The position numbers and the translations under genes were made by a program. Below, piece after piece: positions 7,957-22,379 of a DNA stretch of 37,797 nucleotides. How positions within the stretch are numbered: the first letter of the stretch is position 1; each line of letters opens with the position of its first letter. The stretch comes from Candidatus Saccharimonadota bacterium. Its GTDB lineage: Bacteria; Patescibacteriota; Saccharimonadia; Saccharimonadales; Saccharimonadaceae. The notes under the pieces are model-generated. The model did no database searches. It saw only the letters and a program-made list of their open reading frames with translations, and was not told the origin of the DNA. The stretch is taken from positions 1 through 37,797 of the forward strand of contig JAFWIQ010000013.1 in assembly GCA_017511865.1 (NCBI GenBank), read 5' to 3'.

Positions 7957-7962
7957 ATTTAG

Positions 7963-8149
7963 AATAATAAAAATAGCCATTACGAAGCTTGGACTTCTAA
8001 ATTGTAAGACCTGTTACATAAGTCAAGAAAAAATCTCCTTATTCGCTCTTCGGGCTGAGGGAGATTTTTTCATTGTTAAGTAGCAGAGCTTACAATTTAG
8101 AAATCTGGTCTAAATCTCAGTATGCTTTGCAATGGCTATTTTTATTATT
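7963..8149. repeat. 187-bp nested palindrome between the arginine deiminase operon and gpmI
   Basis: The outer arms AATAATAAAAATAGCCATT (7963-7981) and its exact complement (8131-8149) match 19 of 19. The middle arms CTAAATTGTAAG (7997-8008) and CTTACAATTTAG (8089-8100) match 12 of 12. The inner arms are AAAAAATCTCC and GGGAGATTTTTT. The arms are nested in order, so the whole gap could fold into one long hairpin. Confidence 0.9.
8028..8070 (+). terminator. Terminator hairpin at the core of the nested palindrome
   Basis: AAAAAATCTCC pairs with GGGAGATTTTTT around a 20-nt loop, and the T run closes the hairpin on the plus strand. It would end the arcB-arcA-antiporter transcript and can act in both directions. 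Confidence 0.75.
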
Positions 8150-8150
8150 T

Positions 8151-8161
8151 TATGATACAAT
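8151..8161 (+). promoter_or_regulatory. -10 region of gpmI (leaderless type)
   Basis: TATGATACAAT; the hexamer TACAAT ends 6 nt before the ATG at 8168 and no Shine-Dalgarno site exists. The same string occurs on the minus strand before the gene at 1228-1521. Confidence 0.55.
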
Positions 8162-17254: not shown

Positions 17255-18559
17255 ATGAAACTATCAGAGGAACTTATTTATCGTGGTTTTGCCGCGGAAA
17301 CAACTATTGAAAATCCTGCGGATTTGGATACTAGGGAGTCAAAGAAGTTTTATTGGGGGGCGGATCCTTCGGCGGATTCTTTGACGATTGGCAATTTGGC
17401 GGCAATCATGATGTGTGCTTGTTTTGTGCGGCATGGATATCAACCATATTTATTAGTGGGTGGAGCGACAGGACAAATTGGTGATCCGAAAGAAAATGGC
17501 GAGCGAGATTTGAAATCGCTTGATGAAATTGAACATAATAAAGAATGTATTAGAAAACAAATATCAAACATTTTTTCGATGGGTCCTGCCACCACAGTTT
17601 CCTCCACATCGGCTAAAGCCTCTGTGGGGGTCCCCCCAGTGGTGTCACCCGTCGATGTAACAATGGTTGATAATTATGACTGGTTCCGTGACATGAAATA
17701 TCTCGATTTCTTGCGGGAAGTGGGGAAGGTGTTTTCGATGACGCAGCTGCTTGATCGGCAATTTGTGCAAAATCGGATTGGTGAGGGTGGATCTGGGATA
17801 AGTTATGCGGAGTTTTCTTATACTTTAATTCAGGGTTATGATTTTTTGCATCTTTATCGTGAGTATGGAGTAGATTTGCAACTTTGTGGGGCAGATCAGT
17901 ATGGAAATTGTACATCTGGGATTCATTTGATTAAAAGATTGGAAGATGGAGTGGCGGATGTATGGTCCACACCATTAGTGGTTGATCCGGTAACGGGGCG
18001 AAAGTTTGGCAAGTCTGAGGGGAATGCTATTTGGTTGGCCGCATCTGATAATGGGTCAGGGAATTACACTTCGATTTTTGATTTTTATCAATTTTGGTTG
18101 AATCAATCGGATGAGGCGGTGGAAAATTTGATTAAGATTTATACGCTTTATGACAAAGATAAGATTGAGGATATTTTAAAACAACACTCAGAGGCGCCGG
18201 AAAAACGAATTGCGCAGCGGGCTTTGGCGCGTGGCGTGACGGAAGTGGTGCATGGACGCGAGGCCGCTGAGGCGGTGGAGAATTTGACGGCGATGCTATT
18301 TGACCGTGAGACGAATTTTGCAGAATTTACGGAAGATGAAATTTTAGAATTTGGTGAATATTTGCCAACGGAGAAAAAAGGTGTGATGTTGGTGGACGCT
18401 TTAGTAAATAATGGTTTAGCTGATTCAAAAAAGAAAGCGCGCGAATTTATTGCACAGGGGGCGATTACGGTTAATGGCGAAAAAATAAAAAATGATATAG
18501 AGCTAAATCAAGTAGCAATTATTAAAAAGGGCAAAAATAAGTTTTTGATTGTAAAATGA
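17255..18559 (+). CDS. tyrS: Tyrosyl-tRNA synthetase
   Basis: Charges tRNA-Tyr. Class I motifs: a HIGH variant in DSLTIGNLAA, the KMSKS variant KFGKSEGNA, plus NYDWF, YTLIQGYDF and LQLCGADQYGNCTSG from the tyrosine pocket. The C-terminal S4 RNA-binding domain is present (LVDALVNNGLADSKKKAREFI ending near residue 434). Between KQISNIF and VDNYDWF lie about 20 residues more than in E. coli TyrRS (MGPATTVSSTSAKASVGV...), encoded by a palindrome at 17568-17658. The site faces away from the known active-site motifs, so activity is probably kept. The stop overlaps the next start (ATGA). Confidence 0.96.
   Translation: MKLSEELIYRGFAAETTIENPADLDTRESKKFYWGADPSADSLTIGNLAAIMMCACFVRHGYQPYLLVGGATGQIGDPKENGERDLKSLDEIEHNKECIRKQISNIFSMGPATTVSSTSAKASVGVPPVVSPVDVTMVDNYDWFRDMKYLDFLREVGKVFSMTQLLDRQFVQNRIGEGGSGISYAEFSYTLIQGYDFLHLYREYGVDLQLCGADQYGNCTSGIHLIKRLEDGVADVWSTPLVVDPVTGRKFGKSEGNAIWLAASDNGSGNYTSIFDFYQFWLNQSDEAVENLIKIYTLYDKDKIEDILKQHSEAPEKRIAQRALARGVTEVVHGREAAEAVENLTAMLFDRETNFAEFTEDEILEFGEYLPTEKKGVMLVDALVNNGLADSKKKAREFIAQGAITVNGEKIKNDIELNQVAIIKKGKNKFLIVK
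17568..17658 (+). repeat. In-frame palindromic insertion in tyrS (copy A)
   Basis: The arms TCGATGGGT + CCACCAC (17576-17595) and GTGGTG + ACCCGTCGA (17639-17655) pair, extended by ACAT / ATGT. Inside, CCTCCACA pairs with TGTGGGGG around GGC-TAAA-GCC. The stretch is GC-rich against an AT-rich gene and accounts for about 20 extra residues in the protein. Confidence 0.8.
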
Positions 18560-19812
18560 AATATTTAGCGGTTTTAGGTCGTCAGCCAGAGATTTCAATC
18601 GCAGAACTCGAGTCCATAAGTGGTGTTGAGTGGCGTCAAATACCTTTTACAGGTCGTGTCGCTCGCGCCCGTCGCCACGGGGCTCGCGCACTAAACCTCG
18701 CGCTGCCGCGCTCCGGAATACCCGTAAAAGGTATTTCGACACCACTCGATATCAGTCGTTTGGGTGGAGTTCAGAAACTTGCGGTTGAATTGGGGCAAAA
18801 ACCGTTGGAATATTTGCAAGCTTTGCCAGAGGGGAAGATTACGATAGGAGTGAGTGATTATTCGGATAAAGCGACAAAAAGAACGGCACAGGGTGAGGCG
18901 TTAAAATTAAAGAAGATTTTGGTAAGGCATGGAAGGAGTGTGAGGATGGTAGAAAACAGAGAAGCCGTGCTTTCTACGGCGACTTCGCTTCATAATGGGC
19001 TTAGTGGCAAGAATGAGCGTAAGGTAGAATTAATTAAGCTAAATGATGAATGGTATAGGGTTGTGGGCGTGCAGGATATTGAAGCCTATGCTAGGCGAGA
19101 TCAAAAACGACCGGCACGAGACGCTAAGGTTGGAATGTTGCCGCCAAAATTGGCACAGATTTTGATCAATCTTTGTGGGGCTTTACCAGAGGATGCGACG
19201 ATTTTGGATCCATTTTGTGGAACTGGTGTGGTTTTGCAAGAGGCGCTTCTCATGGGATACCGAGCGTATGGCACTGATGTTAGCGAACGGATGGTTGAGT
19301 ATAGTAGGAAGAACTTGGAATGGCTGATTGCCAATTCAGAAAGGCTGTTTTCGGGGCATTTCGGAGGCTGCTGCCGAGAATTAGGGCCCGAGCCCCGTGA
19401 AGACGGGCGCGAGGGACCCGGCCCCGAAAATACGCCTTTTGAATTGGCTGAGGGCGATGCGACTTCTTTTAAATGGAGTCAGCCGATAGATGCGGTGGCG
19501 TGTGAAGGATATCTCGGAAAGCCGTTTTCGCATATTCCTACCGAAATGGAATTAAAAGAGCAAAAGCAGGAATGTGGGGCAATAATTTTAGGGTTTTTGA
19601 AGAATCTGAATAAACAAATTAAGTCTGGAACTCCAGTAGTGATTGCGGCTCCGGCGTGGTTACGTAATGATGGAACGTATGAGAGGCTAAATATCATTGA
19701 CGAAATTCAAGATATGGGGTATAATGTTGATAATAAGTCGCGCGAGGGGCTTCTTTATTGTCGAGAGGGCCAGATTGTAGCGAGAGATATATTAATTTTA
19801 AGGAATAAATAA
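18556..19812 (+). CDS. Trm11/Trm-G10-like N2-guanine methyltransferase (RNA, possibly DNA)
   Basis: An N-terminal domain (YLAVLGRQPEISIAELESI, then DISRLGGVQKLAVELG) resembles the THUMP-side region of Trm11/Trm-G10 tRNA methyltransferases. A Rossmann-type SAM-binding domain follows, with motif I LDPFCGTGVVLQEA at residues 217-230, AYGTDVSERMVEYS as motif II, and EGDATSFKW as motif III. The usual catalytic D/NPPY is replaced by ACEGYLGKP, as in Trm-G10-like proteins (E.YLG). The substrate is most likely a tRNA guanine, but this is inferred. Two palindromic inserts disturb the protein: residues about 25-64 (Arg-rich) and about 258-298 (Gly/Pro/Arg-rich). The ATGA overlap couples it to tyrS; rpmA follows without a gap. 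Confidence 0.75.
   Translation: MKYLAVLGRQPEISIAELESISGVEWRQIPFTGRVARARRHGARALNLALPRSGIPVKGISTPLDISRLGGVQKLAVELGQKPLEYLQALPEGKITIGVSDYSDKATKRTAQGEALKLKKILVRHGRSVRMVENREAVLSTATSLHNGLSGKNERKVELIKLNDEWYRVVGVQDIEAYARRDQKRPARDAKVGMLPPKLAQILINLCGALPEDATILDPFCGTGVVLQEALLMGYRAYGTDVSERMVEYSRKNLEWLIANSERLFSGHFGGCCRELGPEPREDGREGPGPENTPFELAEGDATSFKWSQPIDAVACEGYLGKPFSHIPTEMELKEQKQECGAIILGFLKNLNKQIKSGTPVVIAAPAWLRNDGTYERLNIIDEIQDMGYNVDNKSREGLLYCREGQIVARDILILRNK
18628..18747 (+). repeat. In-frame palindromic insertion in the methyltransferase gene (copy B)
   Basis: The left arm (18628-18653) starts GAGTGGCGTCAAATACC; the right arm (18721-18747) ends GGTATTTCGACACCACTC. They match at about 24 of 26 positions. 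The 67-bp core is GC-rich, with the hairpin CCCGT-CGCC-ACGGG. The core aligns with copy C in reverse orientation (shared CTCGCGCCCGTC and CACGGGGCTCG, then CTAA and CTCCG). Confidence 0.88.
19330..19448 (-). repeat. In-frame palindromic insertion in the methyltransferase gene (copy C, inverted core)
   Basis: The left arm starts GCCAATTCAGAAAGGC and ends TTTTCGGGGC (19357); the right arm starts GCCCCGAAAA and ends GAATTGGC (19448). Arms pair over about 28 bp with few mismatches. The core between them, read on the minus strand, matches the core of copy B, while the arms are unrelated to those of copy B. Confidence 0.88.
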
Positions 19813-20103: not shown

Positions 20104-21144
20104 ATGGCTAAGAAAAAACGAATCGGATTTTCTTTTCGGTCGATTTTGATAGTTTTGACGGTGGTTCTGGTGGGCTATGTAGTCTATTTGAATTGGACAG
20201 ACATTTTGGAAACCCTGAATCATCTGCAAGACACAAATGTGTTTGTGTTGCTGTTGTTGATTCCTGAGCAACTTTTTATGTATTACGCTTGTGGCCAAGT
20301 GTTTTTTTCTTATCTTAAAAATCGGCAAAATGTAAAAAAGTTTTCCAAAGGTGAGATTTTAAGTATTTCTACGGAATTAAATTTTGTTAATCATGCCGTG
20401 CCGGCTGGAGGGTTGGGTGGATTGGCTTTTTTGACATATAGATTATATCCGTTTAATGTGTCTGTAGGGCAGGCGAGTTTTTTATATATTTTTAGGTATG
20501 CAATTACTACCGTCATAAATTATTTGCAAGCATTGATTGCGATTTTGGTTTTGTTGGCGTTAAATTTAATTCCAGAAAATGCGATGTGGATTATTCCGGT
20601 AGCCTTGATAATGAATTTGGGTGTGTTTTTTGTTTTGTGGATAGTGGTATACATCGCTAGCAGCAAAAAGCGGACGGAATTTTTTTCGAGGGCTGTAGAA
20701 AAAATATCTAGTACTTTGATAAAAATCGTGACTTTTGGTCGCAGGAAACACTTAATAAAAAGTGAAAAAATTAAAGATTATTTTGCGGACATTCACGAAA
20801 GCGTGAAGATAGCCAAGGATAATAAAAGGTATCTCAAGAAGCCCGCAATGTGGGGGCTTGTTTATAGTTTTTGTGAAATTGCAACGTATTGGATTGTGGC
20901 GATTTCGTTGGGGCGCCCGGAACTTTTGCCGTTTATTATGGTGGGGGAGGCGATTGGGTCGGTGTTTGATGGGATTGTGCCTTATGGATTATATGAATTA
21001 GGTATGGCTGGCGTAATGATTGCGCTTGGAGTGGACTTTCCGACTGCGACGATTGTGACGGTAATGACGCGCGTGATTACGCTCATGTTTACGATAATTT
21101 CTGGTTCATGGCCATATTATAAGGCGATAAGGAATAATAAATGA
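20104..21144 (+). CDS. LPG synthase TM-like (UPF0104/AglD-type) membrane protein
   Basis: A 346-aa integral membrane protein with about 7-8 helices. Features of the lysylphosphatidylglycerol synthase transmembrane/UPF0104 family are visible: the N-terminal helix then NWTDILETLN, the LNFVNHAVPAGGLGGLAF segment (the P-x-G-G-x-G loop of the family), and the C-terminal VGEAIGSVFDGIVPYGLYELGMAGVM. Members act in flipping or handling lipid-linked molecules; there is no lysyltransferase domain here, so only the membrane part is present. Substrate unknown. The predicted mRNA is leaderless; the stop overlaps the xseA start (ATGA). Confidence 0.8.
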   Translation: MAKKKRIGFSFRSILIVLTVVLVGYVVYLNWTDILETLNHLQDTNVFVLLLLIPEQLFMYYACGQVFFSYLKNRQNVKKFSKGEILSISTELNFVNHAVPAGGLGGLAFLTYRLYPFNVSVGQASFLYIFRYAITTVINYLQALIAILVLLALNLIPENAMWIIPVALIMNLGVFFVLWIVVYIASSKKRTEFFSRAVEKISSTLIKIVTFGRRKHLIKSEKIKDYFADIHESVKIAKDNKRYLKKPAMWGLVYSFCEIATYWIVAISLGRPELLPFIMVGEAIGSVFDGIVPYGLYELGMAGVMIALGVDFPTATIVTVMTRVITLMFTIISGSWPYYKAIRNNK

Positions 21145-22379
21145 GCAAGCAGCTAAACTCATCTTCTTCGGACACGCTCAAGGGCGCTCGCCCAAGCTTA
21201 TGGTCCTCAGAAGATGAGCTTACGTTGCTTGCTCGGTTTACTCCTACCGAATTTATTAATGTCGTGAATCAGACTTTGGATTACGCATATCATGAGGCCA
21301 CGATTGTGGGTGAAGTGGCGAGTTTTAAAATAAATCAAGGAAAGTGGGTGTTTTTTGATATAAAAGATGAGGAATCTTCGATCTCTTGTTTCATGACTCT
21401 TTACCAGTTGAGAATTCCAATTGAAGATGGAATGAAGGTGATGGTAAAGGGTGTGCCAAAAGTTACTAAGTGGGGAAAGTTTTCTTTTACCGTGCAAGCG
21501 GTGAAGCCAGTGGGTGAGGGGAGTTTAAAAAAGGCATATGAGATTTTGAAAAAGAAATTGAGCAGTGAGGGATTGTTTGACGCGACAAAGAAGAGAACGT
21601 TGCCGAAGGATTTGACTAAAATTGGAGTAATTTCTAGTACAGCAGCGGCTGGGTATGCAGATTTTGTAAAAATTATTAATGCGAGATGGGGTGGCTTGAG
21701 GGTGCAGGTGGCGCATACGCAAGTACAAGGCCTTGACGCACCAGATCAGATTATTAGGGCGCTTAATTATTTTAATGAAAAGAGCGAAATGCAGGTAATT
21801 GCGATTTTGCGAGGCGGTGGTTCGGCTGATGATTTGTCTTGTTTTAATGATGAGAAACTGGTGCGAATAATTGCTGCAAGTAAAATACCAGTGATTACGG
21901 GAATTGGGCATGAAGTGGACGAAAGTTTGGCGGATCTTGCGGCGGATGTGAGGGCTTCTACTCCTTCTAATGCGGCAGAAATATTGACGAGAGACAAAAA
22001 AGAGGAAAGAATAAAGCTTGAAAAAAACATTAATCGTGTAACTCAAGTGGTGTTGCAGGAAGTTGGGCGGGCAAAAATGGTGAATGCGGAAAAAGTTGAA
22101 AAAATTTCTAGTGGGATAATTTCTAAATACATTGAGCCGATGGTAGAGCAATGTAGGAAAAAGATTCAAGAATGTGTTGATAAGATTAAGGTTGAATTTA
22201 GGGAAATGGAGAAAAATTTGCAACACAAAATAAAATTATTGGAAACACTAAATCCAGAAAGGATTTTGGCGCAGGGTTATGCAATTTTGAGTGGTAAAAT
22301 TTCACCAGGTAATGTTGTAAAAATTACAACAATTAAGCAAGAAATTGAAGCGGAGATTAAAAAAATTAAAGAAAGGTAA
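21141..22379 (+). CDS. xseA: Exodeoxyribonuclease VII large subunit
   Basis: Single-strand DNA exonuclease used in repair, in complex with XseB. The N-terminal OB fold spans about residues 33-130 (ATIVGEVASFKINQGKWVFFDIKDE). The catalytic domain has GVISSTAAAGYADF, ILRGGGSADDLSCFND and GIGHEVDESLADLAADVRASTPSNAAE, all standard. A long coiled-coil follows (about 290-370) and then the ARGYA-like AQGYAILSG. The first 31 codons are made of the palindrome at 21143-21234 and have no counterpart in other XseA proteins. ATG 21141 overlaps the upstream stop. Confidence 0.94.
   Translation: MSKQLNSSSSDTLKGARPSLWSSEDELTLLARFTPTEFINVVNQTLDYAYHEATIVGEVASFKINQGKWVFFDIKDEESSISCFMTLYQLRIPIEDGMKVMVKGVPKVTKWGKFSFTVQAVKPVGEGSLKKAYEILKKKLSSEGLFDATKKRTLPKDLTKIGVISSTAAAGYADFVKIINARWGGLRVQVAHTQVQGLDAPDQIIRALNYFNEKSEMQVIAILRGGGSADDLSCFNDEKLVRIIAASKIPVITGIGHEVDESLADLAADVRASTPSNAAEILTRDKKEERIKLEKNINRVTQVVLQEVGRAKMVNAEKVEKISSGIISKYIEPMVEQCRKKIQECVDKIKVEFREMEKNLQHKIKLLETLNPERILAQGYAILSGKISPGNVVKITTIKQEIEAEIKKIKER
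21143..21234 (+). repeat. Palindrome forming the first codons of xseA (copy D)
   Basis: Left arm GAGCAAGCA then CTCATCTTCT, ending GGAC (21143-21173). Right arm GTCC then AGAAGATGAG, ending TGCTTGCTC (21203-21234). Arms match at about 26 of 31 positions. The core holds GGGCG-CT-CGCCC. In the mRNA the hairpin would start two bases after the A of the ATG and tie up the initiation region. Confidence 0.88.

Follow-up and report, generated by a model that had tools for sequence, protein, structure and literature searches.

How did two palindromes with homologous, oppositely oriented cores come to lie in frame within a single methyltransferase gene, and where do their arms come from? The question is raised by a stretch of 37,797 nucleotides (hereafter the window), which is contig 6 of a 600-kb genome in 18 contigs, from a member of the UBA2866 group of Ca. 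Saccharibacteria from the ruminant gut. A first-pass annotation, made from the sequence alone, had described an in-frame mobile palindrome resembling Rickettsia palindromic elements (RPEs), had read its arms as inverted copies of the target rather than as constant sequence, and had suggested snap-back copying around a mobile core. The first reading held, and so did the second, which is supported by swapped-arm controls and, at clean sites, by orthologues with empty sites. Snap-back copying is still an inference, though it accounts better than any other model for the traces seen. The earlier observation is confirmed and the phenomenon is larger than first described.

Palindromic elements in the methyltransferase and xseA genes

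The host gene (18556-19812, plus strand) is an open ORF of 418 codons that carries both palindromes, B and C, in frame. It encodes a Trm11-like tRNA G10-type methyltransferase: the Pfam families UPF0020 and N6_N4_Mtase both score above cut-off, and tRNA (guanine-10-N2) methyltransferases are the closest solved relatives of its product. Element B has a left arm at 18628-18653 (plus strand; GAGTGGCGTCAAATACCTTTTACAGG) that pairs, with a 1-nt bulge, with a right arm at 18720-18747 (plus strand); its core at 18650-18721 (plus strand) matches our covariance model R1 of core family 1 in canonical orientation (65.9 bits, E 3.1e-15 for the window). Element C lies on the minus strand, its family-1 core at 19356-19425 (80.7 bits with R1, E 3.8e-19) being oriented opposite to that of B. 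Its gene-left arm at 19330-19357 (minus strand) comprises 28 nt that are 82% complementary to the gene-right arm at 19421-19448 (minus strand), which encodes FELA of the strand before GDAT. When one of them is inverted, the B and C cores are homologous over 56 nt with 79% complementarity. Folded as single-stranded DNA, B and C reach z-scores of -4.45 and -6.50, and 0/200 dinucleotide-preserving shuffles folded as well.

Many methyltransferase orthologues exist without either insert. The residues IANSERL of the gene-left arm of C have no counterpart in these empty orthologues, and FELAEGDAT aligns with FQLEVGDAT and FQVTHGDAT of insert-free orthologues. The gene-left arm is likely the inverted copy and the gene-right arm the native one, this single case being not significant in the test of 55 copies described below. 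For element B, comparison with orthologues gave no assignment of the native arm.

The extents first proposed for B (18628-18747) and C (19330-19448), both within the open ORF, held, as did the claim of homologous cores in opposite orientation, on the grounds of the complementarity and the covariance-model matches. A small correction is required to the proposed arms and core of about 65 bp, as the arms often carry a 1-nt bulge and the conserved unit, from about TTCGGG to CCCGAA, measures about 80 nt.

A third element, possibly the copy A that the first-pass annotation left unnamed, occupies 21143-21234, right after the start codon of xseA (exonuclease VII large subunit; 21141-22379, plus strand; Pfam Exonuc_VII_L, E 7.1e-65). 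Its left arm (21143-21169, plus strand) pairs with its right arm (21207-21234, plus strand) around a core at 21170-21206 (plus strand; GGACACGCTCAAGGGCGCTCGCCCAAGCTTATGGTCC, an exact pattern match), and the fold as single-stranded DNA has a z-score of -5.65. This core belongs to a second family, which at about 40 nt is shorter than family 1 and different from it. Family 2 was found in 13 of 25 congeneric genomes, with zero matches for the reversed-pattern control, and four times in this genome (XseA, PolA, MurB and one contig edge). The rule of locus-specific arms applies likewise, own arms pairing with a score of 18.1 against 6.7 for swapped arms (29 copies).

At 7959-8154, between genes, the window also contains a nested, AT-rich inverted repeat some 190 nt long with a terminator-like central hairpin, unlike either core family; its predicted RNA fold has an energy of -84.8 kcal/mol.

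Distribution and anatomy of cores and arms

This genome yields 17 family-1 matches, every one in frame and stop-free within a conserved protein gene. Two copies each are found in the methyltransferase, IleRS and ArgRS genes, and single copies in those for ValRS, aminopeptidase N, UvrD, ObgE, GyrA, LigA, RecX, YchF, PriA, IscS and TruB; host genes other than the methyltransferase are named for what we take them to be from our own reading of the translations. A search of the genome with the core would have refuted a mobile element had it returned no more copies, which with 17 matches it did not. Nor do orthologues carry the same residues without the palindrome; many lack these residues entirely.

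Among 60 congeneric genomes 59 contain family 1, with up to 34 copies per genome. Exact core matches among named genomes came exclusively from Candidatus Saccharibacteria, mostly with ruminant-gut sample names and with UBA2866 included. A family-level sample screened at E 1e-5 yielded the core in 18 genomes from 11 other genera, and a phylum-wide sample of 287 genomes screened at E 1e-7 yielded no match beyond the genus. Reversed-pattern controls for the core search gave zero matches. Copies from the genus were analysed first as a set of 114 and then as a set of 181 distinct copies, 155 of which lie inside ORFs of at least 110 codons. The genomes are metagenome-assembled. One YchF copy, L123 on a 4.3-kb contig, is identical to L160 on its right side and has an unrelated left flank; this likely reflects either chimeric assembly of the contig or a recombination event at the element.

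Conservation extends from about TTCGGG to about CCCGAA, and outside these motifs the copies are unrelated. Between loci, core identity reaches 100%, and the arms, of 16-25 bp, are unrelated. Thus cores that are 96-100% identical carry unrelated arms, with the boundary at TTCGGG/CCCGAA, and within this genome the IleRS and ValRS cores are identical across 71 nt and flanked by unrelated arms. Each copy has arms that match each other: the mean pairing score was 17.9 for own arms against 6.7 when arms were swapped between copies (114 copies), and 14.6 against 6.6 for copies from other genera (20 copies). The GC content of the arms (39%) is close to that of the flanks (43%), that of the core being 71%. 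Intergenic copies have the same kind of arms as genic ones.

The core consists of two hairpins within the stem formed by the arms, and these hairpins are conserved. In an alignment of 99 distinct rows, 15 of the 19 core pairs have changed on both sides, giving 246 both-side change cells where shuffles give 72 and slid partners far fewer; the nine pairs of the first helix are 98.4% paired, with 78 both-side cells against 11. Because of these compensatory changes the fold of the strand, as DNA or as RNA, is apparently under selection. The translated peptide, unlike the folded strand, is apparently not selected, the coding copies occupying all six reading frames (17 to 42 copies per frame). Only 57% of core frames, on average, are open. 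No Rfam family matched the elements up to E = 1.

Of the 181 copies, 92 have the 1-nt bulge on the right arm strand, at 9-17 nt from the start of the core, and 22 have it on the left. The right-strand bulge is seen whichever way the gene is oriented, and also in some of the intergenic copies, and no clear rule was found that links the bulge to reading frame or core length. The cores of L116 (ValRS) and L218 (UvrD) are enlarged by additional hairpins in P2 or P3, which may reflect nesting or hairpin exchange of elements.

The LigA site is occupied by family 1 in this genome and by family 2 in other species. Given different core families at the same site, tolerant sites may have been struck repeatedly, or cores may have been exchanged. 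As a separate observation, L169 (8853-8921) has a family-1 core where the orthologous intergenic site of the related L170 has one of family 2, and the arms at either site match each other.

Native and copied arms at filled and empty sites

The elements are mobile, and the origin of their arms can be followed at uvrD, for which we compared 33 orthologues, 28 empty and five filled, with the insert between the motifs TNKAA and GTFHG. On a maximum likelihood tree from which the insert region was left out, the filled genes are scattered, requiring five changes, and strongly supported branches force at least four of these. Empty sisters exist for two of the filled genes: L182 for L219 (support 99/96) and L184 for L252 (100/96). 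In L219 the order is GGAAACTTCTACATGGT, core, ACCATATAGAAGTTTCC, and the empty sister L182 has GGAAGCTTTTATATGGT running on into the gene. The empty allele of either pair contains a homologue of the left arm and nothing that corresponds to the right arm. The right arm of L219 shares the lineage's own changes (AAACTTCT) without the later T to C of the left arm. Because these lineage changes are shared and the later change is missing, the right arm appears to be an inverted copy of the left arm that was made after the species split and before the T to C change. L252 gives the same picture: its copied arm and the empty sister L184 share TTACAAGAT, and its left arm has TTACAAAAT. In each case the copy retains an ancestral base since lost from the native arm. 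Native sequence beside the insert is retained, with only a few nucleotides replaced, and no direct duplication was seen in the uvrD comparisons, in which clean sites are few. At clean sites, then, one arm is native and the other copied.

A broader test used 55 copies with some empty orthologue. One arm was clearly native in 24 copies, both were in 7 and neither was in the remaining 24; by chance about 5 copies with one native arm and none with both would be expected. The native arm of the 24 one-arm cases was the left in 16 and the right in 8. The idea, drawn from MT_C, ObgE and UvrD, that the canonical left arm is always native was dropped, since tests of 52 and of 55 copies showed either side. 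A version of the test based on protein alignment with free gap placement was too noisy for use.

Insertion mechanism and relation to known systems

We lean, by a modest margin, towards a family of small mobile palindromes in which a core is copied into a break, its ends snap back and the flank is copied as an arm. The data show that the elements are mobile, how their arms are built, which arm is native and which copied at clean sites, that the hairpins are conserved and that the frames are open. Snap-back synthesis, the source of core DNA, the absence of a dedicated transposase and the enzymology are all inferred, no insertion having been observed. The mobile unit would be the GC-rich core (about 80 nt in family 1, about 40 nt in family 2) with its self-complementary ends and internal hairpins. 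A 3' end of the target, broken or stalled, would copy or capture a core, the core 3' end CCCGAA would fold back onto its own 5' end TTCGGG, and a polymerase would then lengthen it by about 20 nt, copied from the flank of the target itself. The lengthened end would be joined to the far side of the break with loss of a few nucleotides of target. One arm would then be pre-existing target sequence and the other an inverted copy made at insertion, and insertions with a frame-keeping net length would survive in genes as about 30 extra residues.

It follows from this model that donor arms would be left behind, that arms would be locus-specific, that no direct duplication would be seen and that either flank could serve as template. 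We favour it because it jointly covers the uncarried donor arms, the inverted flank copies of about 20 nt and the inverted-repeat core ends, as well as entry in both orientations and into many genes. In yeast, templated inverted duplications of 5-34 bp arise via fold-back synthesis, with inverted microhomologies and a 41-nt spacer (PMC11724301). Against snap-back, the 55-copy test identified a native arm for no more than about half of its copies. The model also does not predict the excess of right-strand bulges or the high genic share of 155/181, which seems high if two thirds of genic insertions break the frame; biased insertion lengths or loss of intergenic copies may be responsible.

Our search for transposition machinery covered the Y1 transposase and reverse transcriptase families only. 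Y1/RAYT transposase (PF01797) was found in one of 40 genus genomes, as fragments only. Reverse transcriptase (RVT_1), typically of about 380-440 codons, was present in 25 of 40 genus genomes; none was found in this genome or in the 99%-complete G026 (15 copies) and G060 (28 copies). Neither is supported as the machinery, given the near absence of the former from the genus and the patchy presence of the latter. A dedicated enzyme of unknown family remains conceivable. SbcD belongs to a nuclease that cuts hairpins in other bacteria. It was not found above the family cut-off in any of 30 genus genomes by a search that matches 13 of 14 control genomes. Its absence might make hairpin intermediates and finished palindromes longer-lived.

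The rival explanation that survives best, itself unlikely, holds that the palindromes are old and locus-specific, their pairing kept by compensation or arm-arm correction, with only cores exchanged by gene conversion. In its favour, the TruB, LigA and ObgE sites differ between species in their core, or in arms that change in step, and the core at one intergenic site is of family 1 or family 2 depending on the species. Against it, the filled and empty uvrD sisters are strongly supported and a single arm is present in the empty allele, which means that elements do insert with a newly made arm; core exchange may act besides it.

Three further rivals are very unlikely. The first is an ordinary MITE, REP or Rickettsia-type element mobilised in trans by a fixed-end transposase, for which many copies, hairpins and in-frame insertion as in RPEs (PMC10969869) could be cited. 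Sequence beyond the core is, however, unrelated between copies, no direct target duplication was seen at the few clean sites, Y1/RAYT is almost missing from the genus and there is no constant peptide frame; the fixed-arm version is largely refuted. The second is a retro-mechanism in which core RNA is put into mRNA or DNA and then reverse-transcribed, for instance by the enzyme of a diversity-generating retroelement. It would suit the conserved folded strand and the reverse transcriptases of 25/40 genomes, but none was found in this genome, G026 or G060 despite their copies. The third is removal or skipping at the RNA level (mini-introns, bypass elements), with the arms as splicing or bypass stem, as the long arm stem and the location in conserved proteins might suggest. 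Against it, inserts are in frame and stop-free though a mere 57% of core frames, on average, are open, an argument that is partly circular as coding was defined by an open ORF; moreover, 17/17 copies of this genome lie in identified genes, and arms of the same kind also flank intergenic copies. Chance, ordinary protein sequence or assembly artefact, to which the use of metagenome-assembled genomes and the chimera-like L123 flank might point, is all but excluded by the same core in 59/60 genomes and in independently assembled named genomes, with reversed-pattern controls at zero.

Snap-back insertion of a mobile core thus remains our preferred reading, and it can be set against known systems. 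RPEs are small hairpin elements that lie in frame within unrelated conserved genes and add tens of residues (PMC10969869). Rickettsia and Wolbachia palindromic elements share with ours many copies in reduced genomes and in-frame inserts in conserved genes. RPE families, however, measure about 150 bp and have a conserved peptide frame, whereas the Saccharibacteria elements have target-derived arms and use six frames. RPE arms are constant, and a definition of RPEs by constant sequence including the arms is not met here. REP/REPIN sequences moved by RAYT are likewise numerous GC-rich hairpins, and our core even contains CGTC. REPs are mainly extragenic (PMC3733652) and Y1-dependent, whereas 155/181 of our copies lie in ORFs and Y1 is almost missing; REPs are also not known to make arms from target sequence. 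MITEs resemble our elements in being non-autonomous and numerous with inverted repeats at their ends. Their terminal inverted repeats are fixed, whereas ours have no more than about 6 bp in common at the ends of the core, the long arms not being shared, and MITEs make direct target-site duplications, of which none was seen in the uvrD comparisons with their few clean sites. By the features tested, the Saccharibacteria elements likely fall outside the RPE, REP/RAYT and MITE families.

Two yeast systems come closer in other respects. Mitochondrial GC clusters and double-hairpin elements are also GC-rich mobile hairpins of AT-rich genomes with presence/absence polymorphism. GC clusters have AG target duplications (PMC4478555), and target-derived inverted arms are not described for them in the relevant sections of that paper. 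Fold-back insertions in RPA and Rad27 mutants show inverted flank duplications of 5-34 bp across a looped hairpin (PMC11724301), and such insertions also arise with single-stranded donor DNA (PMC11724301). Their defining feature, an inserted arm that repeats the neighbouring native sequence in inverted orientation, is present at the uvrD sister pairs and is borne out by the 24 of 55 copies with exactly one clearly native arm. They are one-off repair products, whereas the Saccharibacteria elements have a conserved spreading core.

In the open-access literature we found no description of Saccharibacteria palindromes, target-derived inverted arms or variable-stem repeats. To our knowledge no transposon family builds flanking inverted-repeat arms from target gene sequence, and no mobile element family is known to lack both fixed enzyme-recognised ends and fixed RNA ends. 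A bolder reading, which we could as readily doubt as accept, is that of transposase-free mobile DNA whose self-priming core makes terminal repeats from each target in an apparently SbcCD-less lineage. If true, target-copied ends would be a different mode of DNA mobility, linking fold-back break repair with selfish DNA. The elements further offer a natural test of the question raised by RPEs, the entry of new protein segments into essential genes, with in-frame inserts numbering in the hundreds, each of about 30 residues, in six frames and across dozens of related species; the failure to find SbcD may suggest why some reduced bacteria tolerate many palindromes. In their effect the elements act like RPEs, and in their mechanism, as inferred here, like fold-back break repair.
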